Positions 30,117 through 45,398 of a stretch of DNA of 64,000 nt are shown here, piece by piece. A model generated the notes under the pieces. That model did not search any database and was not told where the DNA came from. It saw only the letters and a list, made by a program, of their open reading frames with translations. Source of the stretch: Gammaproteobacteria bacterium (GTDB lineage: Bacteria > Pseudomonadota > Gammaproteobacteria > JAABTG01); contig JAGNLM010000003.1 in the NCBI GenBank assembly GCA_017999615.1, positions 62,001 to 126,000 of the forward strand. The letters are read 5' to 3'. Made by a program: the position numbers and the translations under genes. How positions within the stretch are numbered: the first letter of the stretch is position 1; the number at the start of each line of letters is the position of its first letter.

Positions 30117-30142
30117 GCCCTGGGGCGGCCGCGGGCCGCGGG

Positions 30143-30177
30143 CCGCGTTGCCGCTGCGGCCCGCGTTGCCGCTGCGG
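30143..30177. repeat. 17-bp direct repeat, two copies
   Basis: CCGCGTTGCCGCTGCGG occurs at 30143-30159 and again at 30161-30177, an 18-bp period. It lies in the 196-bp gap between the XRE regulator and the acyl-CoA synthetase. It could be a duplicated binding site or slippage. Confidence 0.8.
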
Positions 30178-30312
30178 GTGGCCTCCTCTATGCTCCTTCG
30201 CAGCTCCTTCGCGCTCCCCTGCCGGCAGGCCGCTCGCCCCGCAGGGGCCCCGCGGCCTCGCGTCCCGGGCCGCCCCGTCTCCACCCCGTCATCGAGCATC
30301 AGGGAGAGCAGC

Positions 30313-31971
30313 ATGCCGGTAAGAATCGTTCCCTCGACGCCCTCCGCCTACCGGTTCCCGCTCCTCATCAAGCACCTGCTGCACACACCGCTCGCCACCG
30401 CCCCGGAGCGGGAGATCACCTACCAGGGCAAGGTCCGCTACGACTACCGCACGCTGGCCGAGCGCATCGCCCGGCTCGCGAACGCGCTGCAGTCGCTCGG
30501 GGTCGAGGCGGGGCACACGGTGGCGATGATGGACTGGGACAGCCACCGCTATCTCGAGTGCTTCTTCGCGGTGCCGATGATGGGCGCCATCCTGCAGACG
30601 GTGAACGTGCGCCTCAGCCCGGAGCAGATCCTCTACACGCTCAATCACGCCGGGGCCGACGTGCTGATCGTGAACAGCGATTTCTTCCCGCTCCTCGAGC
30701 AGCTCGCGCCGCGCCTGGAGACGGTGAAGACCTTCGTGCACTTCTCGGACGAGGGCCACGCGCCGCCCGCCTCGCTCCCGATGCACGCCGAGTACGAATC
30801 GATGCTGGCCGCCGCGGCGACGGCCTTCGAGTTCCCCGACTTCGACGAGAACGCCCAGGCGACGGCGTTCTACACGACGGGGACGACCGGTGAGCCGAAG
30901 GGTGTGTACTTCAGCCACCGCCAGCTCGTGCTGCACACGCTGTCCTGCGCCGCGGTGGTGGGCGGGTCGGACCGGGAGGGCCACGTCCACCGGGAAGACG
31001 TCTACATGCCCATCACGCCGATGTTCCACGTGCACGCCTGGGGCTTCCCGTACCTAGCGACGATGCTCGGGATGAAGCAGGTCTACCCGGGCCGCTACCA
31101 GCCCGACCTCATCTGCCGGCTCATCGCCGAGGAGGGCGTGACCTTCTCGCACTGCGTGCCGACGATCCTGCACATGATCATGAGCCACCCCCAGGCGAGT
31201 CGCACCGACTTCTCCGGCTGGAAGGTGGTGATCGGCGGCTCCGCACTGCCCGAGGCGATGGCCGTCGCGATGCAGAAGCGCGGCATCGACATCTTCACCG
31301 GGTACGGCCTGTCGGAGACCTGCCCGGTGCTCACGATCTCTCAGCTCGAGAACGCGGACCTGGCGCTGCCCCTCGAGGGGCAGGCGGTGATCCGGGCGAA
31401 GACCGGACGCCCGATGCCGCTGGTGGACCTGCGCATCGTCGACGCCAACCTGCGCGAGGTGGAGCACGACGGGAAGGCGACCGGCGAGGTCGTCGTACGC
31501 GCGCCCTGGCTCACGCAGGGCTACATCCGCGCGCCCGAGGCCTCCGAGGCGCTCTGGGTGGGCGGCTATCTGCATACCGGCGACATCGGCCACATCGACC
31601 CGGCCGGCTACCTGAAGATCACCGACCGCATCAAGGACGTGATCAAGACGGGCGGCGAGTGGGTCTCCTCCCTGCAGTTGGAGGACATCATTGCGCGCCA
31701 CGAGGCGGTCAAGGAGGTCGCGGTCATCGGCGTCCCGGACGAGAAGTGGGGCGAGCGTCCCCTCGCGCTGGTGCTGCTCAAGCCCGGGCACGCGGGCGAG
31801 GTCACCGAGCACGCCCTGCGCGGCTTCGCCGCCCAGGTGGTCGAGGCGGAGGGCATCTCCCGCTACGGCGTCCTGCTGCAGGTCCGCTTCGTGAAGACCC
31901 TGGTCAAGACGAGCGTCGGCAAGATGAACAAGCGCCTGATGCGGGCGGACCCGGAAGCGCTCTGCATGTGA
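30313..31971 (+). CDS. Long-chain fatty acid-CoA ligase / AMP-dependent acyl-CoA synthetase
   Basis: 552 residues. P-loop YTTGTTGEPKG lies at about 187-197. Also visible are the TGYGLSETCP block, HTGDIGHIDPAGYLKITDRIKDVIKTGGEWVSS, and the C-terminal catalytic lysine in SVGKMNKRLMR. The sequence resembles medium/long-chain fatty-acid or cinnamate-type CoA ligases (AlkK-like). The ATG at 30313 has GGGAGAG at good spacing. Substrate not assignable. Confidence 0.88.
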   Translation: MPVRIVPSTPSAYRFPLLIKHLLHTPLATAPEREITYQGKVRYDYRTLAERIARLANALQSLGVEAGHTVAMMDWDSHRYLECFFAVPMMGAILQTVNVRLSPEQILYTLNHAGADVLIVNSDFFPLLEQLAPRLETVKTFVHFSDEGHAPPASLPMHAEYESMLAAAATAFEFPDFDENAQATAFYTTGTTGEPKGVYFSHRQLVLHTLSCAAVVGGSDREGHVHREDVYMPITPMFHVHAWGFPYLATMLGMKQVYPGRYQPDLICRLIAEEGVTFSHCVPTILHMIMSHPQASRTDFSGWKVVIGGSALPEAMAVAMQKRGIDIFTGYGLSETCPVLTISQLENADLALPLEGQAVIRAKTGRPMPLVDLRIVDANLREVEHDGKATGEVVVRAPWLTQGYIRAPEASEALWVGGYLHTGDIGHIDPAGYLKITDRIKDVIKTGGEWVSSLQLEDIIARHEAVKEVAVIGVPDEKWGERPLALVLLKPGHAGEVTEHALRGFAAQVVEAEGISRYGVLLQVRFVKTLVKTSVGKMNKRLMRADPEALCM

Positions 31972-32127
31972 CCCCGCTGGGCCCCGGGGCGCGTCCGGGA
32001 CCCCCTGGCGCGAGCCAGGGCCCCGCGAGCCCGAGCAGGAGCCAGGGGCCTGCAAGCCCCAGGGCGGCCACCAGCCAGAACGCCGCGAGCCGCCGGCTGG
32101 CGGGCCGTCCCGCCGGGGCGGACGGCG

Positions 32128-33261
32128 TCAGGGGGGACAGGGTGCCTCCCCCCCGGCGCAACCGGCACCCGTCCACCGGCCGAGCGACTCCGGCAGCGCG
32201 GGCCGCCCGGCGGGCGGCAGGGCAACCTCCGGCACCGCCACCCCCGGGGCGTGGCGCACCTGGGCAACGAGGTCGACCTCGCGCAGAGGGGTCTCGCCGA
32301 GGGCTGCCACGCGGTCCGCGCCGGCATAGGCCAGGGTGACCCGGTCGCCGGAGACGGCGACGGTGGGCGGGTCGCCGCGGGCGCCGGGCGCGGTGAAGGT
32401 GCCGAGGAGGTACACCCGGCCCAGGGGCTCGAGGGGTGCGAGGGCCTGCACCAGCGCCCGGGCGCCGATGCGGGGGGTCTTCAGCGCGAGGGAGGTGGTC
32501 TCTTCCGCATCCCCCGGGACCAGGACGGCCCGCTCCGGGTGCCAGTCGGCGGAGGACGCGGGTCCCACCGAGCGCGGGCCGAGCGGGGTGGCGACCAGGA
32601 AGCCGCCCTCGGCGAACGGCCCCAGCACCGGGTAGCAGCCCGAGACGTCGGCGTGGGTGCGCCGGTCGCGCCCGCGCAGGGACAGGGTGAAGGCGCGCGA
32701 CCCCATCCCCGCGTCGTAGGCGCGCCGGGCGGAGCCGATCTCCCCGAGCCCCGCGCGGATGAGCCCCTTCGCCCCGAGCCCGCTCGCGGCGAGCGGCATC
32801 GCGAGCGCGCCGAGGAGCGCCACGACCACGAGGAACGCGAGCTCGCCCCCGCCCCCGGACTCGATGCGGTAGCGGGGGTTCCCCGGGACCACGCAGCGCA
32901 CGCGGCTCGGCCACAGCCAGGCGACCCCCGCGGGCGTCGTCATGTCGGCGAGGCTGTGGCTCGCCCAGCCGGCGAGGAGCGCGAGGGCGTGGCCCGGCGG
33001 CAGGAGGGCCCAGGCGGCGAGGCCGGCGCCTGCCTGCAGGAGCAGGGAGTGGGTCAGCGTGCGGTGGCCGAAGCGGTCCTCCAGCCAGCCGCTCGCGCCC
33101 GGCAGCAGCCTGCCGGCCCAGGACTGGCGCAGGTCGAGATCGGGGAGCACCGCGCCCAGCAGGGCGCTGGCCGCCTCGGCGAGCGCGGGCACCCGCCCGG
33201 AGACGACGCAGGCGAGGAGGTAGGCGCTCTGGCCGGTGACCAGGTGCGTGGGCGTCATCAC
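32128..33261 (-). CDS. YdjM-type membrane-bound metal-dependent hydrolase
   Basis: 377 residues from GTG 33261 (ATG 33258 is the next codon). The first 190 residues show the YdjM pattern: THLVTGQ, GAVLPDLDL, HRTLTHSLLL and HSLADMTTPAGV. These give a set of His/Asp candidate metal ligands between membrane helices. The C-terminal half is a predicted soluble region unlike short YdjM proteins. The family often travels with plasmids, prophages and conjugative elements. It is last gene of the leftward accessory block. The 156-bp gap to the acyl-CoA synthetase contains imperfect GC-rich inverted repeats. Confidence 0.75.
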   Translation of the reverse strand: MMTPTHLVTGQSAYLLACVVSGRVPALAEAASALLGAVLPDLDLRQSWAGRLLPGASGWLEDRFGHRTLTHSLLLQAGAGLAAWALLPPGHALALLAGWASHSLADMTTPAGVAWLWPSRVRCVVPGNPRYRIESGGGGELAFLVVVALLGALAMPLAASGLGAKGLIRAGLGEIGSARRAYDAGMGSRAFTLSLRGRDRRTHADVSGCYPVLGPFAEGGFLVATPLGPRSVGPASSADWHPERAVLVPGDAEETTSLALKTPRIGARALVQALAPLEPLGRVYLLGTFTAPGARGDPPTVAVSGDRVTLAYAGADRVAALGETPLREVDLVAQVRHAPGVAVPEVALPPAGRPALPESLGRWTGAGCAGGEAPCPP

Positions 33262-33316
33262 CGGGGCCGCCTCCCGCCCGGGCCCCGCCTGCCACTCGGG
33301 CCCCGCGCGGGCCCCC

Positions 33317-34246
33317 TCACCGGAACCGCCCGAGGAGCATGCGCAGGCCCACCAGGAGCGAGGTCACCACGCCGGACAGCACGAACAGCTCCACGTCGTT
33401 CGCGCCCCGGGCGATGTAGCGCAGGGCGACGAAGGCGACGAGGGCCACGAGCAGCAGTGGGGTCATGTCGAAGTACCTCGCCCCCGCCTCGTGGCGGTAG
33501 GCGCGCACCCCGGCGAGGGTGACCAGAGCGTCGTGGGCGGCGGCGCCGACCATCCCCTCGATCGCCGCCGGCACCCCCCCGCTCTCGTGCTCCACCGCGC
33601 GCAGGAAAGCCTCGCGCACCCGCGGGCTGGCGAAGGCGACCGGCCTCTCGGCGAGCCAGCGCTCGGCCAGGGCCCGGGTCGCGGCCCGCGGCAGGGGGCC
33701 GAGGTCCACCACCCGGTGGAAGCGCCAGAGGAGCTCCTCCAGGTGGGGGCGGCGCCGGCCGGCGTCACTCGCCGCGGCGAGGGGCGCCACGCTGGCGAGG
33801 GCGAGGAGGAGCTCGGCGCGGGCGGGCGGGAGGTCGATGGACTCCACGAACACGACGGCGCCCCGGTCCCGGACGGACTCCACGACGAGTGCCACCACCT
33901 CCCGGGACGGGGCCCGGGCCAGGGCGCCGCGCACCCACTCCCAGCGCAGCTTCCCCGCCCGGTAGGCCGCCGCCCGGTGGCGCTGGGGGACCAGATGCTC
34001 CGGCACCTGCAGCCCCACGGCCCGGTGCGCCTGCTCGGCCAGCTCGCCGGCCATCGCCCGGGTGTCGGTGTCCCGGACCCAGAGGCAGGGCCGGTCGGCC
34101 GAGATCCGCCGGCGGGCCTCGGCGAGCAGCGCCGACTTGCCGATCCCGGGACGCCCCCGCACGAGGACCGAGTGCCCGGCCGCCAGGGCCGCGCACACTT
34201 CGGCTACCTCGTGATCGCGGCCAACAAGGCCTGCAGGCGGCTCCAC
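33317..34246 (-). CDS. P-loop ATPase with C-terminal membrane anchor
   Basis: 309 residues. Walker A GRPGIGKSAL lies at 31-40, with a Walker-B-like AVVFVESID near 130. The C-terminal 60 residues hold two membrane helices (LLLVALVAFVALRYIARG, ELFVLSGVVTSLLVG). It resembles STAND/ORC-type AAA ATPases. The start GTG overlaps the upstream TolC-like gene by 43 bp. Role unknown; it may be part of the accessory element. Confidence 0.65.
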   Translation of the reverse strand: MEPPAGLVGRDHEVAEVCAALAAGHSVLVRGRPGIGKSALLAEARRRISADRPCLWVRDTDTRAMAGELAEQAHRAVGLQVPEHLVPQRHRAAAYRAGKLRWEWVRGALARAPSREVVALVVESVRDRGAVVFVESIDLPPARAELLLALASVAPLAAASDAGRRRPHLEELLWRFHRVVDLGPLPRAATRALAERWLAERPVAFASPRVREAFLRAVEHESGGVPAAIEGMVGAAAHDALVTLAGVRAYRHEAGARYFDMTPLLLVALVAFVALRYIARGANDVELFVLSGVVTSLLVGLRMLLGRFR

Positions 34247-34857
34247 TCGTTTCCCCCGTGCCGGCGCGCGGCGGCGAGCAGGGCGGTTTCGAGATCGGCC
34301 CGCGTACGCTGGGCGCGTTGCTCGTCCTCCTGCACCCGCTCGGCGTCCGCCCAGAGGGAGGCCGCCTCCGCCAGACCCTCTGCCACCTGCTGGCGGCGGT
34401 AGTCCAGGCGGTCCCGGTGGAAGCGGCGCAGGGTCTCGAGCTCACGGAGCTCCCCGGCGCGGGTGCAGAGGCGCTCGAGGTCGGCGAGGAACGCCTCGGT
34501 GGCGGCCCGCTCCTCGCGCCGCCACGCGGTGCGGGCCCGGGTCGCCTCGAGCTCCTGCCTGCGGTCGAAGAGCGGGATGCGCAGGCGCAGGGCGGCGTTG
34601 GCGCCCGCGGCGTCGAGGTCGGTCGTCTTCTGGGCGTAGCCGAGCACGAGGTCCGCCGACCAGCCGTGCTGGTGGGCCTGGGCGGCCTGCTCCTCGCGCC
34701 CGGCGACGAGCACCGGGTGGGCCGAGAGTACCAGCCGGACCGCCTCCTCGAGCGCGTCCGCGTCCCCGCAAGCCCTTGCAGCGGGAGCGGCAGCCAGAGC
34801 CAGGGCGAGCAGGGCCACGGCGGGCAGGACCAGGCCGCCCCTCGGTCGCCCGCTCAC
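34204..34857 (-). CDS. TolC/outer-membrane-efflux-like exported coiled-coil protein
   Basis: 217 residues from a GTG. The signal peptide LVLPAVALLALALAAAPAARA is followed by one TolC-type repeat pattern (VLSAHPVLVAGREE, AALRLRIPLFDRRQELEATRAR) and a long helical hairpin. It is half the size of true TolC proteins, so it probably does not form a channel by itself. It overlaps the upstream gene by GTGA. Confidence 0.6.
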   Translation of the reverse strand: MSGRPRGGLVLPAVALLALALAAAPAARACGDADALEEAVRLVLSAHPVLVAGREEQAAQAHQHGWSADLVLGYAQKTTDLDAAGANAALRLRIPLFDRRQELEATRARTAWRREERAATEAFLADLERLCTRAGELRELETLRRFHRDRLDYRRQQVAEGLAEAASLWADAERVQEDEQRAQRTRADLETALLAAARRHGGNEWSRLQALLAAITR

Positions 34858-35138
34858 AGCGGCAGCGACCCCTGCTCGGGCGTGAAGTCCACGAACACCC
34901 GGCCCTGCATCACCGCAAGCAGGTCCCGCACCTTGGCCAGGTCCTCGCCCCGCACCGCCTCGCCGAGCAGCACCACCTGGAGCCGTCCGTCGCCGGTGAT
35001 CTTCACGAAGTCCACCCGCACGGGGAGGGCGCGTACCTCCCCCGCCTCCTCCGTCCCGAGGGGACCCTCGCGCCCGGCCGCGCCCCCGGTCCGGAACACC
35101 CGCTCCGCGCTCTCCAACACGGCCAGCCTGCTGTTCAT
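34854..35138 (-). CDS. Small hypothetical protein of the accessory block
   Basis: 94 residues from the ATG at 35138, with AGGAGAT immediately upstream on its strand. It has an alternating beta/alpha pattern (VRVDFVKITGDGRLQVVLLGE, LAKVRDLLAVMQGRVFVDF). No family recognised. The GTGA overlap with the TolC-like gene places both in one operon. Confidence 0.55.
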   Translation of the reverse strand: MNSRLAVLESAERVFRTGGAAGREGPLGTEEAGEVRALPVRVDFVKITGDGRLQVVLLGEAVRGEDLAKVRDLLAVMQGRVFVDFTPEQGSLPL

Positions 35139-35154
35139 GCGGTCATCTCCTGTC

Positions 35155-35210
35155 ACGGTTCGCATCGCACGGTTCGCATCGCACGGTTCGCATCGCACGG
35201 TTCGCATCGC
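35155..35210. repeat. Four perfect 14-bp tandem repeats
   Basis: ACGGTTCGCATCGC is repeated four times without a mismatch. The array fills most of the 100-bp gap between the phage-O-like gene and the next gene of the accessory block. It could be iterons, a regulator binding array, or a recent slippage expansion. Confidence 0.95.
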
Positions 35211-35238
35211 AACCCCTCACGGCAAGCTTGAGGAGCAC

Positions 35239-36180
35239 TCACCCAAGGCACGCCCGGGCGGCTGCGGCCCGCTCCGGGCCTGCCAGAGGGGAACCGCCGC
35301 CAATCGCGCGGCGCAGTCCGTCCACCCGGGCCCGCGCCTCCCCGGGCGCGAGCCGGGGCGGCGCCACCGCACGCAACCCCTGTCTCGCCCCCGGCTCGCG
35401 CAGACGCTCCATGGCCTCGAGCGCCCGGGCCCTCTGGCGGGCCTCGGCGACCCGCAGCCCCGGTGTCGGGTCGAAGGTCCCCGCCTGCCAGCGGCGCACC
35501 AGCGCCGCCAGCACCGCGAGCGGGGACTTGCGCACCTGACCGGCCTGGATGGCCGCAGCCACCACGTCCAGCAGCGCCTGGTCCTCGGCGCCGACCGGAG
35601 CCACGAGCTCGGTGGCCTGCCGGCGCTCACCGTCGCTGAGGGAGCGGTGAAAGGCGAGATCGGGACGACCACCACCACGCAGGGGGACCGGCAGGCGAAC
35701 CACGTGCGCGCCCGATCCCCGTGGTGGTGGTATTTCTTGTCTTTCTCCTGATCCAGGGACTACCTCCTGGGATCCAGGAGGTACTCCTCCGCGCGCGTGG
35801 GGAGCCGTCCCGCAACAGGGACAGCGGGCGTCCCGATTCGGGGACGGGGGACGCCCCGTTTCGGGACGGGTGTCCCGTTGCGGTACGCCGCAGGGCTCGA
35901 GGTCGACCGCAAGCAGCTTGCCCCGGGCCCCGGGGCGCGAGCGCAGGACGCCGAGGTGCTCGAGCTCCAGCACCGTCTCGCGGCAGTGCGCGGGGGTGAT
36001 GCCGGTGAGCCGGGAGAGCTCGGTGGAGGAGACCTCGACGGCGGCGAGGGCCGTGCCGGGGAGGCCGCCGGGGAGGGCGCCGCCGAGGGAGAGGGAGAGG
36101 ACGGCGAGGAGGACCTTGTACTGGCGCTTGCCGAAGGGCTGGCGGGCGAGCGCGGCGAGGAGGGTGTCGAGGGCGGTCAT
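35239..36180 (-). CDS. Phage replication-protein-O-like winged-helix protein
   Basis: 313 residues. The N-terminal 90 residues resemble the phage O/Rep_O winged helix: GKRQYKVLLAVLSLSLGG, SSTELSRLTGITPAHCRETVLELEHLGVLR. A low-complexity Pro/Arg/Gly middle (105-175) is encoded by the iteron-like repeats at 35807-35886, and the C-terminus is helical. It could instead be a plain HTH regulator. It is divergent from the XRE gene across a 126-bp AT-richer region, as in phage or ICE immunity and replication modules. The ATG at 36180 has GGAG upstream. Confidence 0.5.
   Translation of the reverse strand: MTALDTLLAALARQPFGKRQYKVLLAVLSLSLGGALPGGLPGTALAAVEVSSTELSRLTGITPAHCRETVLELEHLGVLRSRPGARGKLLAVDLEPCGVPQRDTRPETGRPPSPNRDARCPCCGTAPHARGGVPPGSQEVVPGSGERQEIPPPRGSGAHVVRLPVPLRGGGRPDLAFHRSLSDGERRQATELVAPVGAEDQALLDVVAAAIQAGQVRKSPLAVLAALVRRWQAGTFDPTPGLRVAEARQRARALEAMERLREPGARQGLRAVAPPRLAPGEARARVDGLRRAIGGGSPLAGPERAAAARACLG
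35761..35783. repeat. Perfect 10-bp inverted repeat inside the O-like gene
   Basis: Arms TACCTCCTGG and CCAGGAGGTA are separated by GAT. It lies between the iteron-like array and a locally T-rich stretch (35721-35755). In an origin it could be a cruciform or initiator site. Confidence 0.7.
35807..35886. other. Four iteron-like dyad repeats (candidate lambda-type origin)
   Basis: Four related units with internal dyad symmetry begin at 35807, 35830, 35853 and 35872: GTCCCGCAACAGGGAC, GTCCCGATTCGGGGAC, GCCCCGTTTCGGGAC, GTCCCGTTGCGGTAC. The spacing is 23, 23 and 19 bp. The lambda origin is likewise an array of four dyad iterons inside the O gene next to an AT-rich segment. The repeats are seen directly; origin function is inference. 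Confidence 0.5.
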
Positions 36181-36243
36181 GAGGCATCTCCATGAGCAAA
36201 TGACATTACACAAATGAGAGTAGATGCCATATACGCATTGCGC

Positions 36244-36264
36244 AAGGCGTCCTCATGACGCCTT
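36244..36264. promoter_or_regulatory. Inverted repeat operator candidate in the divergent control region
   Basis: 8-bp perfect arms AAGGCGTC and GACGCCTT have a 5-nt spacer. It lies midway between the divergent O-like and XRE genes, so it could control both. A second dyad (GCATAG/CTATGC, 36293-36310) lies next to the XRE start. Confidence 0.5.
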
Positions 36265-36306
36265 CACATGAGCTCGTGAGCATGATCTGTTGGCATAGGG
36301 CCTGCT

Positions 36307-36798
36307 ATGCTTGATGCCATGGAGACATTTTCGGCCCAGCTCGGCGCCCGCATGCGGGCCGCACGCAAGGCGGCGCGGCTCAGTCAACACCAGTTGGGCG
36401 AGGAGGTGGGGCTCGACCAGGCCTTCATCAGCCGGCTCGAGACCGGCGTTGCGGAGGGCACCCCCGCGCAGATGATGGCGATCGCCCGGGCCCTCGGCGT
36501 CTCCGTCTCCGGGCTGATGGGGGTGGAGCCGGTCCTGGAGCCGGTCCGGCCCCGGGCCGTGCGCAGCCGGAAGGACGTCCTCGACGACCCCGGCGCCCCG
36601 GCCGGTCTGCGGGCACTCGCGGAGGACCGGGCGCTCACGACGAGCCTGCGCGTCGGGGAGCTGGAGTGGCGGGCGCTCGCGTCCATCGAGCTGCCCGCCC
36701 CGGCCACCAAGGAGGGGTACGTCGCGGTGCTGATGGCGGTGCGGGGGGCCTCGGGCGCGGCCGGCCCGGGCGCGGCCGATCCGGAGGAAAAAGGCTAG
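36307..36798 (+). CDS. XRE/CI-like repressor of the accessory block
   Basis: 163 residues from ATG 36307; ATG 36319 is an equally possible start, and neither has a good Shine-Dalgarno. The Cro/CI helix-turn-helix is at about residues 10-60 ([32 protein letters not shown]). A less conserved C-terminal half ends in an Ala/Gly tail. Divergent placement against the O-like gene suggests a repressor controlling the leftward block. It is the last gene before the selenoprotein. Confidence 0.75.
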
Positions 36799-36835
36799 GG
36801 CCGGGAGCAGCCCGCCGCGACACGACATGGATCAC

Positions 36836-36865
36836 TTGTTGGCCCACGCGCGCGTCCGGTATGTT
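36836..36865 (+). promoter_or_regulatory. Candidate promoter of the peroxiredoxin gene
   Basis: TTGTTG at 36836-36841 and TATGTT at 36860-36865 with 18-bp spacing, 43 bp before the ATG. A GGGCGA/TCGCCC hairpin (36872-36891) lies in the predicted leader. Confidence 0.45.
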
Positions 36866-36908
36866 GCGGGTGGGCGAGACCGTAGTCGCCCCCAGGAAAG
36901 GAGGCAGC

Positions 36909-37622
36909 ATGGCAGAACAACCCCAGGGATGCGCCCGGGTGTCGGGGTCGGTCGAAGGGGCCCTGCCGGACACGCAACCCCCCCAGGAACTCATGAAGCC
37001 ACAGGAGTCGAATCGAATGGTCGCACGCGTCGGGCAGAAAGCCCCTGACTTCACCGCTCCCGCGTATTACCGGGGCGGTTTCACCAGCGTCAAGCTGTCG
37101 GATTTCGCCGGCAAGTGGGTGCTGCTCTGTTTCTACCCAGGCGATTTCACGTTCGTTTGAGCGACGGAAGTGTCGGCGGTCGCCGCACAATACCGTAAGC
37201 TGCAGGAGCTCGGTGCCGAAGTCATTTCTTTCAGCGTGGACAGCCACTTCGTCCACAAGATGTGGAACGACCACGAGCTGAGCAAGATGGTGGACGGCGG
37301 CGTGCCGTTCCACATGGCCTCGGACCAGGCAGGAAACGTCGGCCGGGCGTACGGTGTCTACGACGAGAGTCAGGGCATCGAGCTGCGCGGCCGTTTCATC
37401 ATCGACCCGGACGGCGTGATCCAGGCGATGGAGGTGCTCACGCCTCCCGTCGGCCGCAAGTTCGCCGAGTCGATCCGCCAGATCCAGGCCTTCCAGCTGG
37501 TGCGTGCCTCGGGCGGCAAAGAGGCGACCCCCGCGGGCTGGGAGCCCGGCAAGATCACCCTGAAGCCGGGTCCCGGCCTGGTGGGTAAGGTCTGGGAGGT
37601 CTGGAAGCCGTCGATGGAGTAG
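36909..37622 (+). CDS. Selenocysteine-containing peroxiredoxin (in-frame TGA = Sec84)
   Basis: 237 residues if the TGA at 37158-37160 is read as selenocysteine. The protein is an AhpC/Prx1-type peroxiredoxin: [72 protein letters not shown]. The TGA falls exactly at the peroxidatic cysteine of the FVC(P/A)TE motif, and the same frame continues with full conservation for 154 codons. The usual C-terminal resolving Cys (VCPAGW) is replaced (EATPAGW), implying reduction by an external thiol. AAAGGAGG precedes ATG 36909; the internal ATG 37017 with AGGAG would give Sec48. It reduces H2O2 or organic peroxides in the cytoplasm. No selA/B/C/D genes are in the window. Confidence 0.9.
37161..37200 (+). 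promoter_or_regulatory. Bacterial SECIS element
   Basis: Directly after the TGA, nt 37170-37188 fold as GUG-U-CGGC-GGUC-GCCG-CAC: a 7-bp stem with one bulged U and a GGUC apical loop starting 17 nt after the UGA. The bulged U plus GGUC loop matches the SelB-binding hairpin of E. coli fdhF. A lower stem ACGG (37164-37167) with CCGU (37193-37196), plus GC/GC closing pairs, extends the hairpin to the UGA. It is inside the coding sequence, as in known bacterial SECIS. Confidence 0.88.
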
Positions 37623-37668
37623 ACGAACCGGGGATCTGCGGGTCCCCGGCCTTGCGAAGGGCCTCACC

Positions 37669-37699
37669 GGCTGGCGCGTCAGGGACCGACGCGCCAGCC
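37669..37699. terminator. Strong bidirectional terminator-like hairpin
   Basis: A perfect 12-bp stem (GGCTGGCGCGTC / GACGCGCCAGCC) with a 7-nt loop. It lies between the convergent peroxiredoxin and DUF3597 genes and is followed by TTCACC rather than a long T-tract. Confidence 0.7.
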
Positions 37700-37714
37700 T
37701 TCACCCGACCCCTG

Positions 37715-38215
37715 TCAGTCCAGAAGCTCCTGCGGGATGTTGCCGCCGTTTTCGGCGAGCCTGCGCAGGACCGTCTTGTGCAGCCACACGTTCATGCTGG
37801 CGGAATCGCCCATCAGGTTCGCGGGGCATCCGAGCTCCGTGGCGAGCTCCTTGCGGGCCGCGAGGCTGCTGTCGAGCTCCAGGAGCTTCAGCAGGTCCAC
37901 GATGGAGGTCTTCCAGTTCAGTTTCTGCGGGTTGGCCTTGGCGAGACCTTCCAGCCTGGCGACCACGTCCACGGTGGAGATCGGGGCGGGCGAGGCCTTG
38001 GCCGGGGCCGCTGGCGCAGCCGCAGCCGCTGGAGCAGCCGCCGGGGCCACCGCCGCAGGTGCACTTGCGGGGGCCGCCGCGAGTCCGGCCTGACTCCCGG
38101 CCGGGGCGGCCTGGGTCACGGGTGCAGCGCCAGCCGGCGCCGCCGCCTCGCTCGCGGGCTCTGCCCGGGCGCCGGAGAGCCCGACCTTTTCCAGTAGCTT
38201 GCTGAAGAAGCCCAT
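37715..38215 (-). CDS. DUF3597 domain protein
   Basis: 166 residues from ATG 38215, preceded by AAAGGAGGAGG on its strand. MGFFSKLLEKVGL is followed by an Ala/Pro linker of about 60 residues. The DUF3597 domain comes next (VDVVARLEGLAKANPQKLNWKTSIVDLLKLLELDSS, then SASMNVWLHKTVLRRLAENGGNIP). Small cytoplasmic protein of unknown function. The longer frame upstream to 38374 lacks family support. Confidence 0.85.
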   Translation of the reverse strand: MGFFSKLLEKVGLSGARAEPASEAAAPAGAAPVTQAAPAGSQAGLAAAPASAPAAVAPAAAPAAAAAPAAPAKASPAPISTVDVVARLEGLAKANPQKLNWKTSIVDLLKLLELDSSLAARKELATELGCPANLMGDSASMNVWLHKTVLRRLAENGGNIPQELLD

Positions 38216-38379
38216 GTGCGTATCCTCCTCCTTTGATTTGGTGGTTTGGCCGGGAGATGGTAACACCGGGGGATCCGCGGGTGGGCCGGGCCCCGGCCGT
38301 GATGCCGCCAGCGGGTGACGGGGCCGGGAGGCCGTTCCGGCCCTCGGGGGCGGCGACGCAACGAGGGAGGGCACGCACC

Positions 38380-39063
38380 GTGAAGCGCTTTCGCCGGGTC
38401 TACTACGACCTGTTTTCCCGCTGGTACGACCGCGTCATCGCGATGCACTCGGGCGACGCGAGTGCGCGGGCGCGGGATTTCCTGGTGGAGCGTGCGGGGG
38501 TCAGCGCGGGCGGCCGCGTCCTCGACCTGTGCACCGGCACGGGCGCCGTGGCCCTGCGGGCGAGGCGCGCGACGGGGCCCGGCGGGCTCGTGGTGGGGCT
38601 CGACTTCTCCACCGGGATGATCGGCAGGGCGCGGGCGAAGGCGGGGGCTGGGCAGCCGCCGGCCTCACCGGAGGCGGAAGAGAATCGGGCGCCAGTCCCC
38701 CCGGGGCTCGGGTTCGTCGTGGGCGACGCCTCCCGGCTGCCCTTCGGCGACGGCAGTTTCGACGTGGTCACCTGCTCGCACGCGATGTACGAGCTCAGCC
38801 CCGAGGTGCGCGACGGCGCCCTCGCGGAGGCGCGCCGGGTGCTTCGCCCGGGCGGCCGTTTCGTGATGATGGAGCACACCGAGCCGAGCCACCCGGTGAC
38901 GCGCTTCCTCTACGGCGTGCGCCTCGCGGCGATGGGCTCCGCGAAGAACCGGGACTTCGCACGGGACGAGAGGCCGTTCCTCGGCCGGCACTTCGCCGAC
39001 GTCACGCTCGAGCTCTCGTCCACGGCCCGCTCGAAGCTCGTGCGCGGGGTGAAGAGGGTGTGA
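38380..39063 (+). CDS. UbiE-like class I SAM-dependent methyltransferase
   Basis: 227 residues from a GTG preceded by GAGGGAGGG. SAM-binding motif I is VLDLCTGTGAVAL near residue 47, then GLDFSTGMIGRARAKA, FVVGDASRLPFGDGSFDVVTCSHAMYEL and EARRVLRPGGRFVMMEH. This is the Methyltransf_11/UbiE pattern, and the N-terminal YYDLFSRWYDRV block fits small-molecule methyltransferases. Substrate unknown; it is not the housekeeping UbiE by context. Confidence 0.85.
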   Translation: MKRFRRVYYDLFSRWYDRVIAMHSGDASARARDFLVERAGVSAGGRVLDLCTGTGAVALRARRATGPGGLVVGLDFSTGMIGRARAKAGAGQPPASPEAEENRAPVPPGLGFVVGDASRLPFGDGSFDVVTCSHAMYELSPEVRDGALAEARRVLRPGGRFVMMEHTEPSHPVTRFLYGVRLAAMGSAKNRDFARDERPFLGRHFADVTLELSSTARSKLVRGVKRV

Positions 39064-39234
39064 AGGCGGGCGAGAAGGCGGCGTGAACAGGGCGCGAAGG
39101 GGGTAGAGAGAGGGGAGGGCAGGGCAGGGCAGGGGGGATGGGAGCGGGTGCCCGCCGGATGGTCTCCGCCCCCCCCGGTCCGGTAAGCTCAGGGCTACAG
39201 TCTCGTTTCCTCACGTTCCCAAGGAGAACTGCCC

Positions 39235-39501
39235 ATGCCTGTCTGGTCTCTGCTCGTCTGGATCCTGGTCGGCGCCGTCGCCGGCTTCGTGGCCCGCAAG
39301 CTCGTCGGCGGTACGCCGCCCTTCGGCACGATCGGCGACGTCATCCTGGGGATGGCCGGTGGCGTGGTCGGCGGCTTCCTGCTCGCGGTCGCGGGCATCC
39401 AGGGCACCGTCGGCGGCCTGCTCGGCACGGTCGTCACGTCCATCATCGGCGCGGTGGTGCTCGTCTGGCTGTCCAACCGCATCAAGATCAAGTCCAGCTA
39501 G
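39235..39501 (+). CDS. GlsB/YeaQ/YmgE family stress membrane protein
   Basis: 88 residues, three hydrophobic segments with the transglycosylase-associated protein pattern (GAVAGFVARKLVGG, GTIGDVILGMAGGVVGGFLL, SIIGAVVLVWLSNRIK). Small inner-membrane protein induced by general stress in relatives. AAGGAG lies close upstream of ATG 39235. The 171-bp gap before it is G-rich and low-complexity. Confidence 0.88.
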   Translation: MPVWSLLVWILVGAVAGFVARKLVGGTPPFGTIGDVILGMAGGVVGGFLLAVAGIQGTVGGLLGTVVTSIIGAVVLVWLSNRIKIKSS

Positions 39502-39578
39502 ACCGGTCTCCCCTCTGCCGCAGGCCCGGCGCAGGCCGGGCCGCCACCGCACGCCCCTTCGCAAACTGGAGCTACACC

Positions 39579-40325
39579 ATGGCCGAAACCGACGACAAGG
39601 GACTCCTGGACCGCCTGGGCGAGATCCTGAACGCCCCCCTGCCGGGGACCCGCAAGCCCGGTGAGGGCAGCGCCCCCGCCGAACCGTCCGGGTCTCCGGA
39701 GGATGACGAGGGCCGCAGCCTGGTCGACCGTATCCGCGACATCCTGAGCGCCCCGCTGCCCGGAACCGAGACCGCCGAGGCGCCCGCGGGGTCGGCCCCC
39801 GCCGCGGCGCCCTCCGCTCCGGCGGGTGCGCCCGCTGCCGGCGCCGGGGCCCCTGCGGCTGCGGGCCCTGCCGGGACCCCGGCCCCGACACCCGCGGGCC
39901 TCGCCGAGGACACCCTGGCCGAGGACTGGTGGCGGCGCGACTGGCAGGCCTTCCGATCGCACCAGGACCAGGAGAACCGGGGGCTCGGGATGAAGCAAGA
40001 GCAGGACCGGGCGAAGCTCACGGCGGTGCAGGAGCAGGAGCGCCAGCGCTTCGCCGCTCACCAGCAGCTGGAGGCGGCCCAGTTCTACCAGTACCAGCAG
40101 TGGAAGCTCGACACCTGGCGGCAGTACCAGGCGGCCGTCCAGGCAGGGCGGCAGGTGCCCCCGCCGGCGTTCGCGCTGCCCCCGGGTGCGGGCATGCCTC
40201 CGGGGATGCCCACCGGGCCGGGGATGCCCCCCGGAATGATGCCGCCGGGTGGCCCGATGGGCGGTCCGCCCGGAATGATGCCACCCCCGTGGATGATGGG
40301 CCCCCGGGGCCGCGGGCCCAGGTGA
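39579..40325 (+). CDS. Pro/Met/Gly-rich protein with duplicated N-terminal motif
   Basis: 248 residues. Two near-identical motifs, LLDRLGEILNAPLPGT (9-24) and LVDRIRDILSAPLPGT (47-62), precede an Ala/Pro linker. A charged Gln/Trp-rich helix follows (WWRRDWQAFRSHQDQENRG, QFYQYQQWKLDTWRQYQ), then a C-terminal PGMPPGMM tail. No family recognised; predicted cytosolic, partly disordered. It follows the GlsB gene by 77 bp. Confidence 0.6.
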   Translation: MAETDDKGLLDRLGEILNAPLPGTRKPGEGSAPAEPSGSPEDDEGRSLVDRIRDILSAPLPGTETAEAPAGSAPAAAPSAPAGAPAAGAGAPAAAGPAGTPAPTPAGLAEDTLAEDWWRRDWQAFRSHQDQENRGLGMKQEQDRAKLTAVQEQERQRFAAHQQLEAAQFYQYQQWKLDTWRQYQAAVQAGRQVPPPAFALPPGAGMPPGMPTGPGMPPGMMPPGGPMGGPPGMMPPPWMMGPRGRGPR

Positions 40326-40340
40326 TCGGCCTCGCGTGAC

Positions 40341-40366
40341 GGCGGAGGGCCCTGCGCGCCTCCGCC
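40341..40366. terminator. Hairpin between convergent genes
   Basis: 8-bp perfect stem GGCGGAGG/CCTCCGCC with a 10-nt loop, located in the 54-bp gap between convergent genes. Confidence 0.5.
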
Positions 40367-40379
40367 GCGCGCTCCGGGC

Positions 40380-41840
40380 CTAGAATCCCCCGCCCGTGCG
40401 GAAGCCCCCGCTGCGGCCCCCGCCTCCGAGGCCTCCGAGGCCGCCGAGACCGCCTCCGCCGCCCCAGGTCCATCCCCCTCCGCGTGTGGTGCCGCGCCCC
40501 CAGACCGAGCCCCGGCCGAAGGCCCCGGACCCGAACGTCGGGTCGGCGCGCTGGGGACGGTAGCGCTGCTGCTGCTCGAACACCCGCCAGAGACTGTCGC
40601 GGTCCAGGAGCCCGTTCAGGAAGCTGCTCAGCATGACACCGAGCAGCGACCCGTCGGAGAACACCGAGTCCCCCCGGTCGTACTGGCGGCGTTTGAAGTC
40701 CACTCGCAGCGACTCGATCTGCTGGAGCCGCGCCAGGTGCTGCTGGGTCGCCTGCTTCAGCTCGGCGAGCGTCGCCCGCAGCGCCTCTTCCTGGCGCTCG
40801 CGGTCGAGCAGGCGGGCGATGACCACGTCGTCCTCGGGGAAGGGCGTTGCCTGGGCGTCCCGCCGGAGCTCCTGGAGGTCCTCGCGCTGGAGCTCCGAGG
40901 CGAGGTACTCCACTGCCTTGCGGTAGGCCGGGTCCTCGCCGGCGGCGAACGCCGCCTGCTCGTCCAGCAGCCGCCGGTGGTCGGCGGCCGCCTGCTCGAT
41001 GCGGGAGTCGAGGGTCTCGAGCACGGCCCGCTCCTGCTCCCGTACCCGCACCAGCGCGGGGATGCCGTCGGCCTTGCGGCCCGCCTCGTCGAGCCCCCGG
41101 AGGGCCTCGATCTCCACGTCCGCACGCTGGCGAGTGGCGTTGGCGTGCTCGCGCAGGCGCACCGGGATCTCCTGGAGGCGCGCGAAGTTGGCGCGCGCCC
41201 CGGCGTACCCGATGAGACTTGCCACCTTGCCGTCGAGCCAGCGTACGAGCGGTGAGGCCTGGTAGGCCGCCAGCCCGTAGCCACGCTCCCAGAGATAGGA
41301 GAAGAGGGGGTCGTCCCGGTAGGACCGGCCCTTCTGGTCGAGCTCCTGCTCGCTGTACCTCGCCTTGTCTTCCGCGTGCTGCGCGATCCGCTCGGCGTCG
41401 CGCGTGCGGTTCTGCTGCGCCTGGTAGTCGGGCTGCGCCGCCAGGCGGGCCTGGGTCCTCGCCTCGGCGGCGTCCACCGCGTCCGAGGCGGCCTCCAGCG
41501 CGTCGGCCTGGGTCCGACGCTCGGCCTCGAGCGCAGACTGCTGGTGCTGGTTGGCGCGGATGCGCTCCGCGAGCGCCGCCTGGGCGGCGGGCCGCGAGGC
41601 GAGCAGGGCCGCGACCTGCCGGTCGGCCTCGTCGAGCCCCGAGACCAGGCCCCCCGCGGCGATCAGCCCCACGCGCAGCCGGGCCAGGTCCCGGAGGTCC
41701 TCCACCCGCGCCCTGCCGAGCTGCAGCAGCTGGCCGCTCACCTCCTCGATGCGCCGGTGGACCTCCTCCATCCGGTGCTGCTCTTCGCCGAGGGCGTCGT
41801 CGATCCGGGTCAGCGCGTCCCTACCGGTCAGCATGGGCAT
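40380..41840 (-). CDS. Long coiled-coil protein with Gly-rich C-terminus (third gene of a three-gene operon)
   Basis: 486 residues, almost wholly predicted coiled coil from 10 to 400 (EEQHRMEEVHRRIEEVSGQLLQLG, and further heptads). A break occurs around YRDDPLFSYLWERGYG. The segment VFSDGSLLGVMLSSFLNGLLDRDSLWRVF is short and hydrophobic, and the tail is Gly/Trp-rich. No signal peptide. Lies 4 bp after the DUF6384-like gene. Function unknown. Confidence 0.7.
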   Translation of the reverse strand: MPMLTGRDALTRIDDALGEEQHRMEEVHRRIEEVSGQLLQLGRARVEDLRDLARLRVGLIAAGGLVSGLDEADRQVAALLASRPAAQAALAERIRANQHQQSALEAERRTQADALEAASDAVDAAEARTQARLAAQPDYQAQQNRTRDAERIAQHAEDKARYSEQELDQKGRSYRDDPLFSYLWERGYGLAAYQASPLVRWLDGKVASLIGYAGARANFARLQEIPVRLREHANATRQRADVEIEALRGLDEAGRKADGIPALVRVREQERAVLETLDSRIEQAAADHRRLLDEQAAFAAGEDPAYRKAVEYLASELQREDLQELRRDAQATPFPEDDVVIARLLDRERQEEALRATLAELKQATQQHLARLQQIESLRVDFKRRQYDRGDSVFSDGSLLGVMLSSFLNGLLDRDSLWRVFEQQQRYRPQRADPTFGSGAFGRGSVWGRGTTRGGGWTWGGGGGLGGLGGLGGGGRSGGFRTGGGF

Positions 41841-41844
41841 GAGG

Positions 41845-42759
41845 TCACCACTCGGTCAGGGCGCCGCCGGCGGTCGGGACCTCGTACTCCGGGTCGAGGA
41901 AGCCGCGACGCTTCACGCCGAAACGGTTGTTCTGGATGATCCCGTCGTCCTGCTTGTCGGCGGCCACCCGGCGGAAGTCCGCCTCGGAGACCCGCAAGCC
42001 CCATTGGGACACCCGCTTGCGCTTGCCGGTTTCCTCGCTCGTGACCTCCACGGGGACGGCGTTCCCGCGGGCGTCCACGGCCTCGACGATGAGGTAGTAG
42101 TTCTTCGCGTCGGGATTGTCGTCGGGCACTCGCCACACGCCCGAGTGCTCGCCCGGGCGCGAGACGATGCGCAGGGTATATTCCTGTTCCAGGGTCTCGC
42201 GCAGGGCCTTCATGGCCACGAGCATCTCCCGGGCGGCCTTCTCGTTGCCCCCCTTCAGGGCGCTCTCGGCCGCGGCGCGGTAGCTGCCGGCGAGCCCGCG
42301 CGCGGGATCGGACTCGGCCAGCGCCAGGACCTGACCGTGCAGCGCGTTGACCTCGTTGGGAAGGGCGGAGCGCGGGGCGACGACGGTCGCGTAGTAGGCG
42401 CTAACGGCGAGGACGAGTGCGGCGACGCCGCCGACCAGCCAGCGGCCCCAGACGCGCCGGCGGACGTAGAGGTGGGCGAGCCGGGTCGCGAGGCTCGGCT
42501 CCGGCGGCCGGTAGACGAAGCGGTCCTCGCGCAGCGCGGCCACTCCCTCCTCGAGGACGTGGTCCGGGACCGCGATGCCCTGGGCCGCGTAGATCTTGCG
42601 CAGCCGCTCCTTCAGGTCGAGCGCCCGCCCTTCCTCGTCGAGCTCGCGCTCCACGAGCTGCTGGCGCCGGCGCAGCGTGTCGACGACGTCCATGGCCAGC
42701 ATGACGTCGTCGAGCGGCGGCCGCTCGGCCGCCGCTGCCTGGGGCATCCCCGCGCTCAC
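41845..42759 (-). CDS. DUF6384-like single-pass membrane protein (second gene of the operon)
   Basis: 304 residues. The N-terminal helical region (LDDVMLAMDVVDTLRRRQQLVERELDEE) is probably cytosolic. One membrane helix lies near 110 (GRWLVGGVAALVLAVSAYYATVV). A C-terminal domain with conserved-looking blocks (YYLIVEAVDARGNAVPV, WGLRVSEADFRRVAADKQDDGIIQNNRFG) is probably outside the membrane. I recall the family as DUF6384, unsure. It overlaps the first gene by 4 bp. Confidence 0.7.
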   Translation of the reverse strand: MSAGMPQAAAAERPPLDDVMLAMDVVDTLRRRQQLVERELDEEGRALDLKERLRKIYAAQGIAVPDHVLEEGVAALREDRFVYRPPEPSLATRLAHLYVRRRVWGRWLVGGVAALVLAVSAYYATVVAPRSALPNEVNALHGQVLALAESDPARGLAGSYRAAAESALKGGNEKAAREMLVAMKALRETLEQEYTLRIVSRPGEHSGVWRVPDDNPDAKNYYLIVEAVDARGNAVPVEVTSEETGKRKRVSQWGLRVSEADFRRVAADKQDDGIIQNNRFGVKRRGFLDPEYEVPTAGGALTEW

Positions 42760-43934
42760 GAGGCCGGAGCCGCCAGGGCCTTACCCTCCTGGGCGAGGTG
42801 GGCCATGCGCCGCTTGGCGTCCTCGACGGCGTTGCGGATCTCCTGGGCGTTGGCGGTGCTCTGCCGGCGCATCTCCTCGATGATCTCGCGCGAGCGCGTC
42901 TGCCAGGTCACCACCGACTCCACCAGCTTCTTCACCGCGTCGGCGCGGATGGTCGGGCCGTAGCCGGCCTTGACCGCTGCCTCCTGGACCTTGCCGCCGA
43001 TCTCGGCCAGGTCCTCGAGGGAGCGGCTCACGCCCTCCTTCATGGCCTCGACCGTCTGGGTGCTCTCGTGCAGGCCGAACATCCCGGTGTAGGAGGCGGA
43101 GAGCGCGGTCAGCACCACCTCGTTGGTGCCGAAGAAGCTCACCGCCTGGGAGTACACGCGCTCCTTGGCGTTGGTGGTCTGGAGCAGGCGCGCCATGACC
43201 ACCTCGGAGGTGTTGTAGCTCACGGTCAGGTTGTCGGAGAGGTCTTTCGCCACCTGGTAGCGCTTCTCCGTGTCCTGCAGCGAGCGCACCTTCTCGTCGC
43301 GCGCGAGCTCGAGGCGGGCCCGCTCGGCCCCGGCCTCCCCCTGGAACGCGGCGAGGGCCTGCATCGCGGACTGCACCTCGGCGCGGGCCGCCTCCACCTT
43401 GCCCTCGGCCTTCTTCAGCACTTCGAGGGCCAGCACCTCGGACTGCTTCAGCGCGCCGCGGAAGTCCTGGTAGGCGTCGAGGATGGTCTGCTCGCGCCCG
43501 ATCTGGTCCCGGGTCGCGCGGGTGACGTCGAGGTAGGTGTCCTTGATCTTGTCGAAGCGCTGGGCGATGTCGCCGCGGGTGACCTTCATCCAGACGTTGC
43601 TCAGCCGCTCGAAGGTGTCCAGGCGCCCGTCCTCGATCTGCTTCACCATCGACTTGGCGTCGTCGCGGATGCTGTTGAAGGCCTCGACGATGGTCTCGTA
43701 GCGCTCCCCGACCTCCATGGCCTGGACCTGCTCGCGCACCACCTCGTTGAAGAGGGAGGCCTGACTCAGCGTCCGGGCGATGGCGACGACCCGCTCCTCG
43801 TCGAGGCCCGTGATCTGGTTGAGGAGGGCGACGACCGGCGCCTCCTCCGGCTTGCCTTCCGGGACGAGGCCGAGGCTGTGCAGTCCGCTCATGGCCTTTT
43901 CGAGGTATTTCATGGGAGAGGCGGTGACGTTCAT
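42756..43934 (-). CDS. Coiled-coil protein, first gene of the three-gene operon (distant TelA-like)
   Basis: 392 residues from ATG 43934, with GGAGG 7 nt upstream. Mostly long helices: FERLSNVWMKVTRGDIAQRFDKIKD, ALEVLKKAEGKVEAARAEVQSAM, and TSEVVMARLLQTTNAKERVYSQAVSFFGTNEVVLTALSASYTGMFGLHESTQ. The overall helical layout recalls toxic-anion-resistance TelA proteins, but I see no specific motif. No signal peptide. It is co-transcribed with the membrane and coiled-coil genes that follow, so the three probably form one complex. Confidence 0.65.
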   Translation of the reverse strand: MNVTASPMKYLEKAMSGLHSLGLVPEGKPEEAPVVALLNQITGLDEERVVAIARTLSQASLFNEVVREQVQAMEVGERYETIVEAFNSIRDDAKSMVKQIEDGRLDTFERLSNVWMKVTRGDIAQRFDKIKDTYLDVTRATRDQIGREQTILDAYQDFRGALKQSEVLALEVLKKAEGKVEAARAEVQSAMQALAAFQGEAGAERARLELARDEKVRSLQDTEKRYQVAKDLSDNLTVSYNTSEVVMARLLQTTNAKERVYSQAVSFFGTNEVVLTALSASYTGMFGLHESTQTVEAMKEGVSRSLEDLAEIGGKVQEAAVKAGYGPTIRADAVKKLVESVVTWQTRSREIIEEMRRQSTANAQEIRNAVEDAKRRMAHLAQEGKALAAPAS

Positions 43935-44057
43935 CGGAGGTCCTCCATGCGGGGCTTGTGGGCGACGGTCTCGCCTCGGGCCCGAGGGCCGGTCGGCGCG
44001 TCGCGCGATTTGTTCTGTGGATCCTGAAAGCAAAATTGACCCGTGCGCGCCCGGATG

Positions 44058-45398
44058 TCAACGCGGTGGGGCACGGCGGGCCAGGCCGGGGTGGCCGAGG
44101 AGCAGCGAGCCGAGGGCGCCGAGGAGCGCGACGCCGGTGGCCAGCAGCATCGCGGGGGCGAGCGAGCCGGCCGCGTCCGCGATGAGGCCGGCGGCGCTGG
44201 GGGCGAGCGCCTGGCCGACGCCGAAGAACAGGGTGATGAAGCCGAGGCCCGCGGGGGCGAGGCGCGGGCCGAGGAGGTCGCCGCAGACCGCAGCCATGAT
44301 GGCCGGGATGCTCCACGCCGAGAGTCCGAAGAGGACGGCGGACAGCAGGAGGCCCGGGGGCGCCGGCCAGAGCGCGAAGAGTCCGAAGGCGAGGGTGTGG
44401 ATGAGGTAGACGATGACCAGGGCCGGCTTGCGGCCGATGTGGTCCGAGACCCACCCCCAGAGCAGGCCGCACGCGAGGCTCAGCCAGCCCAGGGTCATGA
44501 AGAGCCCGCCCGCCTCGGCCTGGGTGTAGCCGCCCTCGGCGATCAGGTACTTGGTGAAGAAGGTCACGTAGATGATGTAGGAGAAGCCGAAGGCGACGTA
44601 GATGAGGCCCACGTGCCAGACGACGGGCGAGCGGTAGACGCTCGACCAGTGGGGCAGGGTGCCGCCCTCGGGTGCGGGGCCCTGCGGGGCTGAGGTCGGC
44701 GCCTCCTCGGGCCCGGCCGCCAGGGGGGCCAGGCCGAGCTCGGCCGGCCGGTCCCGGAGCAGGGCGAGGGCCAGGACCGCGAGGAGGAGCGTCACGCCCC
44801 CGAACCCGAGCCAGCAGGCCCGCCACCCGTCGGCGCCGTACGCCTCCAGCAGGCGCGGCACCAGGGGCCCCAGCAGGATGACCGCGAACGAGGACCCGGT
44901 GACCGCGACGCCGGCGGCGAGCCCCCGGCGCCGGCGCCCGAACCAGGCCGAGAGGAGCGCCATGACCGGGACGTTGCTCGCGCCGCTGCCGAGGCCCGTG
45001 AGTGCGCGCCAGCCCATGGCCGCGGTGAAGCCCCCGGCGAGCCCGGTGAGCAGCATCCCGAGGGCCGCCAGGGCCAGCCCGGCGGCGATCACGACACGGG
45101 GCCCGAAGTGCGAGGCGAGTGCCCCGCCGAGCACCGCCAGGGCGAGGTAGCCCGCGAGATTCGCTGTCGCGAGGGCCCCGGCCTGGGCGTTGTCGAGCCC
45201 CAGGTCCGCCTGCATCGAGGGCAGCAGCATCGTGTAGCCGAAGCGGGCGAGCCCGAGGGAGGCGAAGACCACCAGCGTGGCCACCGCGAGCACCACCCAC
45301 GCGTAGTGCACGCGGGAGGGTGCAGCGCCCTGGGCGGAGGCGGTGAGTGGGGGCACGGGCTCGAATGATACGCGCCTGCGCCCGGCGGGGGCGGCCAC
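44058..45398 (-). CDS. MFS transporter (YbfB/YjiJ-like)
   Basis: 446 residues with 12 membrane segments. It shows LGLARFGYTMLLPSMQADLGL in TM1, the loop motif GWVSDHIGRKPALVIVYL between the two halves, and YIIYVTFFTKYLIAEGGYTQ. Substrate unknown. It is a single gene; 123 bp separate it from the first gene of the three-gene operon. Confidence 0.82.
   Translation of the reverse strand: MAAPAGRRRVSFEPVPPLTASAQGAAPSRVHYAWVVLAVATLVVFASLGLARFGYTMLLPSMQADLGLDNAQAGALATANLAGYLALAVLGGALASHFGPRVVIAAGLALAALGMLLTGLAGGFTAAMGWRALTGLGSGASNVPVMALLSAWFGRRRRGLAAGVAVTGSSFAVILLGPLVPRLLEAYGADGWRACWLGFGGVTLLLAVLALALLRDRPAELGLAPLAAGPEEAPTSAPQGPAPEGGTLPHWSSVYRSPVVWHVGLIYVAFGFSYIIYVTFFTKYLIAEGGYTQAEAGGLFMTLGWLSLACGLLWGWVSDHIGRKPALVIVYLIHTLAFGLFALWPAPPGLLLSAVLFGLSAWSIPAIMAAVCGDLLGPRLAPAGLGFITLFFGVGQALAPSAAGLIADAAGSLAPAMLLATGVALLGALGSLLLGHPGLARRAPPR

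Follow-up and report, generated by a model that had tools for sequence, protein, structure and literature searches.

A selenocysteine peroxiredoxin gene, prxU, in a gammaproteobacterial genome, with a candidate second translation start

The window, a stretch of 64,000 nucleotides from a gammaproteobacterial assembly (GCA_017999615.1, contig JAGNLM010000003.1, positions 62,001 to 126,000), carries a gene that, judged by profile matches and alignment, is a new member of the known PrxU family, a selenocysteine (Sec) peroxiredoxin of the AhpC/Prx1 fold, and an ortholog of Peptoclostridium acidaminophilum PrxU, with Sec84 in both. On the comparative evidence UGA84 is read as Sec, directed by a downstream SECIS hairpin within the coding sequence and by the genome's SelA, SelB, SelD and tRNA-Sec. 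Comparison across several phyla further suggests that prxU makes two enzyme forms, with and without a Cys-bearing tail, and Cys8 in this N-terminal arm may act as a resolving thiol. The original prediction, made from the window alone, read the gene as a selenoprotein peroxiredoxin, and the TGA found in 81 of 81 aligned genes, the conserved hairpin and the Sec genes of the genome agree with it; it overlooked the Cys8 arm, the internal Shine-Dalgarno (SD) site and the candidate second start. Coordinates are collected in Table 1.

Table 1. Features of prxU and its surroundings, in window coordinates.
Feature	Position	Strand	Remarks
SD of first (long-form) start	36897..36904	+	AAAGGAGG, 4 nt before ATG 36909
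prxU long form	36909..37622	+	237 aa, Sec84; AhpC/Prx1-type peroxiredoxin; NF040737, Pfam AhpC-TSA
N-terminal arm	36909..37016	+	codons 1-36; Cys8 codon 36930-36932, GCAR motif, in 78/81
Internal SD, AGGAG	37003..37007	+	9 nt before ATG 37017; duplex energy -6.9 kcal/mol
Proposed PrxU short form	37017..37622	+	from internal ATG (Met37), 201 aa, Sec at position 48, core domain only
Sec84 codon, in-frame TGA, peroxidatic residue	37158..37160	+	TGA in 81/81 aligned genes
Bacterial SECIS hairpin	37174..37185	+	core CGGC-GGUC-GCCG, 13 nt past TGA, in coding sequence; pairs kept 81/81
Helix-turn-helix regulator	36307..36798	+	163 aa; Pfam HTH_31, 43.4 bits
DUF3597	37715-38374	-	Pfam
UbiE-like methyltransferase	38233-39063	+	
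Transglycosylase-associated protein	39235-39501	+	
Long ORF	40380-41840	-	no Pfam match
DUF6384	41845-42759	-	Pfam
Long ORF	42756-44033	-	no Pfam match

Identity of the gene and its relatives

The gene occupies a single frame whose sole internal stop is the TGA at codon 84, and with this codon taken as Sec the product has 237 residues. One Pfam AhpC-TSA profile (131.7 bits, residues 41-173) runs across U84 into both halves, confirming the earlier statement that the reading frame is intact on either side of the TGA. The NCBIfam PrxU model NF040737 scores the protein at 385 bits (cut-off 270) over residues 6-235, arm included, and the PrxU active-site pattern PxxxTxxU is present as P77...T81-F-V-U84. 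Two other families were rejected: the UxxC motif of the Prx-like thiol:disulfide oxidoreductase selenoproteins is absent from the protein, in which U84 is followed by A-T-E, and the AhpC equivalog TIGR03137 gives 184.1 bits, under its cut-off of 272, with Thr207 in place of the C-terminal resolving Cys. The genome holds ten matches to PF00578, eight of them above the cut-off including prxU, and prxU alone of the ten has an internal TGA.

The solved structures with the best sequence match are AhpC and typical 2-Cys peroxiredoxins. A structure predicted with the 81 aligned sequences as input (mean pLDDT 84.1) resembles Salmonella AhpC (1n8j; target TM-score 0.89) and human Prx2 (7kj1; 0.87) in fold. 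These enzymes have the peroxidatic residue in the same place, and the window protein differs from them in its Sec, in the Thr at the resolving site and in its N-terminal arm. Sec84 is presumably held at the active site by Pro77, Thr81 and Arg160; by analogy with the family, its selenolate would reduce hydroperoxides and thiols would regenerate it.

A scan of genome contigs returned at least 570 relatives, and the window was aligned with the 80 best-scoring of these. A strict expression found TGA at the site in 76 of the 80, and the alignment shows it in the other four, giving 81 of 81 with the window, a count that speaks for the best 80 of at least 570 relatives; Cys versions may exist farther out. 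A chance TGA is excluded by this sharing, and the placement of the TGA at the peroxidatic position, as originally proposed, holds in all 81 genes. By record names and tree labels, the best 80 include Chloroflexota, Pseudomonadota, Acidobacteriota, Actinomycetota, Calditrichota, Spirochaetota and Planctomycetota.

A tblastn search against plasmids led to the annotated prxU of P. (Eubacterium) acidaminophilum, 240 aa, on an 809-kb plasmid. Its product (WP_084481301.1; Soehling et al. 2001) is identical to the window protein in 140 of 227 columns (62%), shares the N-terminal GCAR and the lack of Cys at the usual resolving site, and scores 408 bits with NF040737 against 385 for the window; it differs in coming from a clostridium, in being a plasmid copy and in having Ala at the resolving site where the window has Thr. 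Selenoproteome surveys list "Prx, TxxU" as a known bacterial selenoprotein family (PMC1088965, PMC1794560, PMC9312934, PMC13188914); the window protein shares the TxxU, two of the surveys use COG1225 (Bcp) whereas our protein is AhpC/Prx1-like, and their passages on this family make no mention of an arm or an internal start. In ore-grown Sulfobacillus thermotolerans, a proteomics study found PrxU at raised levels.

Two starts and a Cys-bearing arm

We consider it fairly probable that this Sec-PrxU is made as two isoforms from two in-frame starts, each with its own SD. The evidence comes from a test in which the three armless genes (L099, L110, L113) were taken out of the aligned set and three further loci put in (L127, L128, L129, which also have TGA at the Sec position, L127 being close to the window), again making 81. 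Among these genes, which are related and hence non-independent both here and in the codon counts below, AGGAG or GGAGG lies 3-12 nt before an in-frame start near the core in 73, against 26.4 ± 3.5 expected from synonymous codon permutation within each gene (500 times). Any start codon within eight codons of the core was admitted, a freedom given equally to the permutations and withheld from a control of other downstream in-frame ATG and GTG codons, of which 18 of 1043 have an SD. An SD precedes the first start in 68 of the 81 genes, some of these starts having been chosen by script in the relatives. The internal site, scored by each gene's best candidate, has a mean anti-SD energy of -9.56 kcal/mol, as strong as the first start with -9.54; the permutations average -5.82, with -6.63 as the best of 200 means, and the other codons -3.41. 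The P. acidaminophilum gene likewise has an internal AAGGAGGAG ahead of an in-frame ATG, as the window has its internal SD and start.

Codon choice bears on one alternative, that ATG 36909 is the single start of one 237-aa protein and the internal SD-like string merely reflects Lys-Glu codon use or a pausing site. In 78 genes, Lys-Glu is written AAGGAG in 52 of 53 cases at the site and in 9 of 43 elsewhere (Fisher p 2e-16, relatedness ignored), Glu-Glu is GAGGAG in 12 of 20 versus 3 of 16, and Gln-Glu is CAGGAG in 6 of 10 versus 10 of 29; these counts, and the 26 sites predicted against 73 observed, speak against it. The single start nonetheless draws on the strong SD that the first start has of its own, on the conservation of GCAR as protein, on the NF040737 match that takes in the arm, and on the window's own internal SD (9-nt spacer), which is among the weaker of the 81 when the host anti-SD is assumed, the 16S not having been found. 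On balance we think a single start unlikely.

The opposite alternative, in which the internal start is the main or only functional one and the upstream part a remnant or leader, appears less likely again, indeed improbable. It would account for the size of the founding PrxU, reportedly about 22 kDa and 203 aa with U47, which corresponds exactly to a Met38 start of the 240-aa P. acidaminophilum reading (240-37 = 203, 84-37 = 47). It would also suit the three armless relatives and the comparison with the same-genus genome, whose prxU differs from the window copy at 15 bases: the arm has two non-synonymous and no synonymous codon changes, and the core has 11 synonymous and two non-synonymous. Against this, GCAR or a close variant occurs in 78 of the 81 aligned genes and its codons take all synonymous forms, so the motif is conserved at the protein level; the first-start SD in 68 of 81 genes points the same way. 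The P. acidaminophilum prxU is, moreover, annotated at 240 aa, and a 2010 paper lists the Clostridium sticklandii seleno-peroxiredoxin CLOST_2406, with Sec84 as in the window, at 240 residues (PMC3091704).

Two starts thus remain our preferred reading, with exceptions on both sides. A strict internal SD is missing in 8 of the 81 genes, four of which have GAGGT, and the armless L099, L110 and L113 retain the same SD and ATG, which in these relatives are probably the gene start: in L099 a stop shuts the frame close upstream, and in L110 and L113 the frame is open with no ATG. Since eight genes do without the strict SD and three without the arm, neither element is indispensable. GCAR was not found in any frame just upstream in the three armless relatives, and the aligned Cys of L113 was accordingly rejected as a Cys8, being an alignment artefact.

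The two in-frame starts, as the comparison implies, would yield a long subunit with a flexible Cys8/GCAR arm and a short armless one. With less confidence, we propose that in mixed rings the arm's Cys8 would resolve oxidised Sec84 as a selenenylsulfide, and that short subunits would be 1-Sec enzymes using an outside thiol. The fuller proposal, that prxU is a one-gene, two-enzyme system across many phyla in which Cys8 of the long form is the resolving thiol for Sec84 and the long-to-short ratio selects the reductant of the ring, is tentative and on present sequence comparisons somewhat doubtful. The resolver step is its least certain part, and our confidence in Cys8 is close to that in the whole proposal. 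The predicted structure gives no support to a Cys8-Sec84 contact; the arm is mostly of low confidence in it, residues 1-10 and 18-35 having pLDDT under 50.

These considerations qualify the original description of a 1-Sec enzyme needing an external reductant. The canonical resolving Cys is indeed replaced, residue 207 being Thr in the window (T 60, C 14, M 6 and A 1 across the window and best 80), yet the 1-Sec character is not established because Cys8, conserved in 78 of 81, is a possible resolving thiol. The 14 Sec-PrxU genes with Cys at the canonical position have Cys8 as well and fall in two separate tree clades (L073, L079 and L100; L094-L097, L102-L104, L106-L108 and L126). Cys74, present in all 81 sequences, was considered as a resolving thiol and rejected as not Sec-specific, since L038, one of the 16 Cys controls, and a Cys-type protein of Sulfurovum have it too.

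That protein, from Sulfurovum mangrovi (WP_229937666.1; plasmid locus L131:1498-2205), has an N-terminal arm with Cys3, its gene carries AAAGGA 7 nt ahead of an ATG in frame, and it possibly represents the same two-start layout without selenium; it differs from the window protein in its peroxidatic Cys, its resolving Cys (EVCPAGW) and its NF040737 score of 220 bits, under the cut-off. Long and short forms from one gene are described for yeast Gpx3, one of whose forms is extended at the N-terminus (PMC5368413), and for bacterial AerR (PMC6199135), both apparently outside the peroxiredoxin family of PrxU and not selenoproteins. Among the papers listed by a literature search whose coverage mostly excludes subscription journals, we recognised none describing for PrxU either a second start or an N-terminal Cys. 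Should both starts be used, the family, known since 2001, would have a further product, and the part played by a flexible Cys arm in selenium catalysis could be tested directly in a laboratory strain.

The SECIS hairpin and the selenocysteine machinery

From the TGA onward the 81 sequences align without gaps. The four core pairs of the hairpin (17-28, 18-27, 19-26 and 20-25) are kept in every sequence, and RNAalifold gives the same four. Pair 18-27 links the last bases of the Ser89 and Ala92 codons; 53 sequences have GC there, 19 AU, five UA and four CG, with none broken; two synonymous positions thus take all four Watson-Crick types. Pair 21-24 likewise lies between third codon bases, those of Ala90 and Val91, with GC in 75 and AU in six. 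In both counts the covariation score, the fraction of cells that pair and the tally of cells with double changes exceeded all 500 shuffles, and slid pairings scored at most 0.153 against 0.262 for the actual one. Two other measures are unremarkable: at least as many pairs with double changes occurred in 264 and 184 of 500 shuffles, and at least as many pair types in 172 and 371. The SECIS is in this way established by synonymous covariation from sequence alone.

As controls we used Cys-type AhpC genes of the phylum, 16 of 29 loci (L018-L046) that fit the motif expression, with the remaining 13 excluded. Of these, none forms pair 17-28 or 20-25 and one forms 18-27. Pair 19-26 forms in all 16, pair 21-24 in 12 and pair 15-30 in 10, and since so many Cys controls form them these three are not diagnostic and carry little weight. 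When the window RNA is folded alone, the stem lengthens to 37171-37189, and this RNA is moderately more stable than its shuffles (z-score -1.73; 9 of 200 as good). Rfam at the gathering threshold returned no entries within 30000-45000 of the window.

An ordinary Cys peroxiredoxin whose TGA arose by nonsense mutation or by sequencing error, leaving truncated products or a pseudogene, is scarcely credible: the stop codon itself is all that speaks for it, and it is ruled out, together with a frameshift, by the TGA shared by 81 of 81 genes, by the hairpin covariation, by the same-genus copy with identical TGA and hairpin and by the Sec genes of the genome, in line with the original argument, which excluded a frameshift and held a nonsense mutation to be unlikely.

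The Sec reading, against which the absence of selB and selC would have counted, is borne out in this genome (2.47 Mb, 99% complete), where selA (578.7 bits, cut-off 267.9), selB (491.6, cut-off 242.25), selD (362.4, cut-off 125) and tRNA-Sec (81.3, cut-off 47; called tRNA-SeC (tca) by ARAGORN) are all above their cut-offs. The genes for selA, selB and tRNA-Sec lie within 4 kb on contig 4 and selD is on contig 3, at 36950-37873 (locus L014), about 24 kb ahead of the window. Its frame has one TGA near the N-terminus, between LATCAG and AAKLGP, and the encoded selenophosphate synthetase is probably a selenoprotein likewise. Two genes on contig 1 (153371-154240 and 136889-137758) reach about 190 bits against the profile of SelB, short of its cut-off, and are probably EF-Tu copies, though this is a guess. 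Among the genomes of relatives, 38 of the 80 were submitted for tRNA-Sec and 31 yielded one; the seven misses are weak evidence because just 83 candidates per genome were scored.

Under the bacterial code the gene is split, as foreseen, into an upstream ORF ending at 37160, which as listed begins at GTG 36666 because the first possible start is taken, and a downstream piece of 150 aa (37170-37622). Sec-blind gene callers would split prxU in this way, so that a genome with this gene can be misjudged in its peroxide defence.

Distribution and gene neighbourhood

The original prediction had called such enzymes rare, a description to be qualified: relatives occur in many phyla and the family is already in print, though among 398 sampled genomes of the window's phylum the window's own genome alone passes the PrxU cut-off. 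In the tree the window groups, with support 95/94, with ten rows, nine Pseudomonadota and one labelled Phycisphaerales; the names among them are Thiobacillus, Hydrogenophilaceae, Thauera, Thiocapsa, Marinobacter and the one Phycisphaerales. Of five genomes of the order, the two of the window's genus have both prxU and selB, and neither gene was found in the other three (one 85% complete) at the thresholds used. Phage-borne copies were rejected, as 11 pattern matches among viral contigs included no prxU relative by tblastn.

An operon partner was rejected as well: when ORFs around the 81 loci were clustered, the widest neighbour cluster covered just 8 loci and none of those listed includes the window. 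Beside prxU on the same strand lies the gene of a helix-turn-helix regulator, whose end and the start of prxU are 110 bases apart and over most of which the same-genus genome shows 93% identity.
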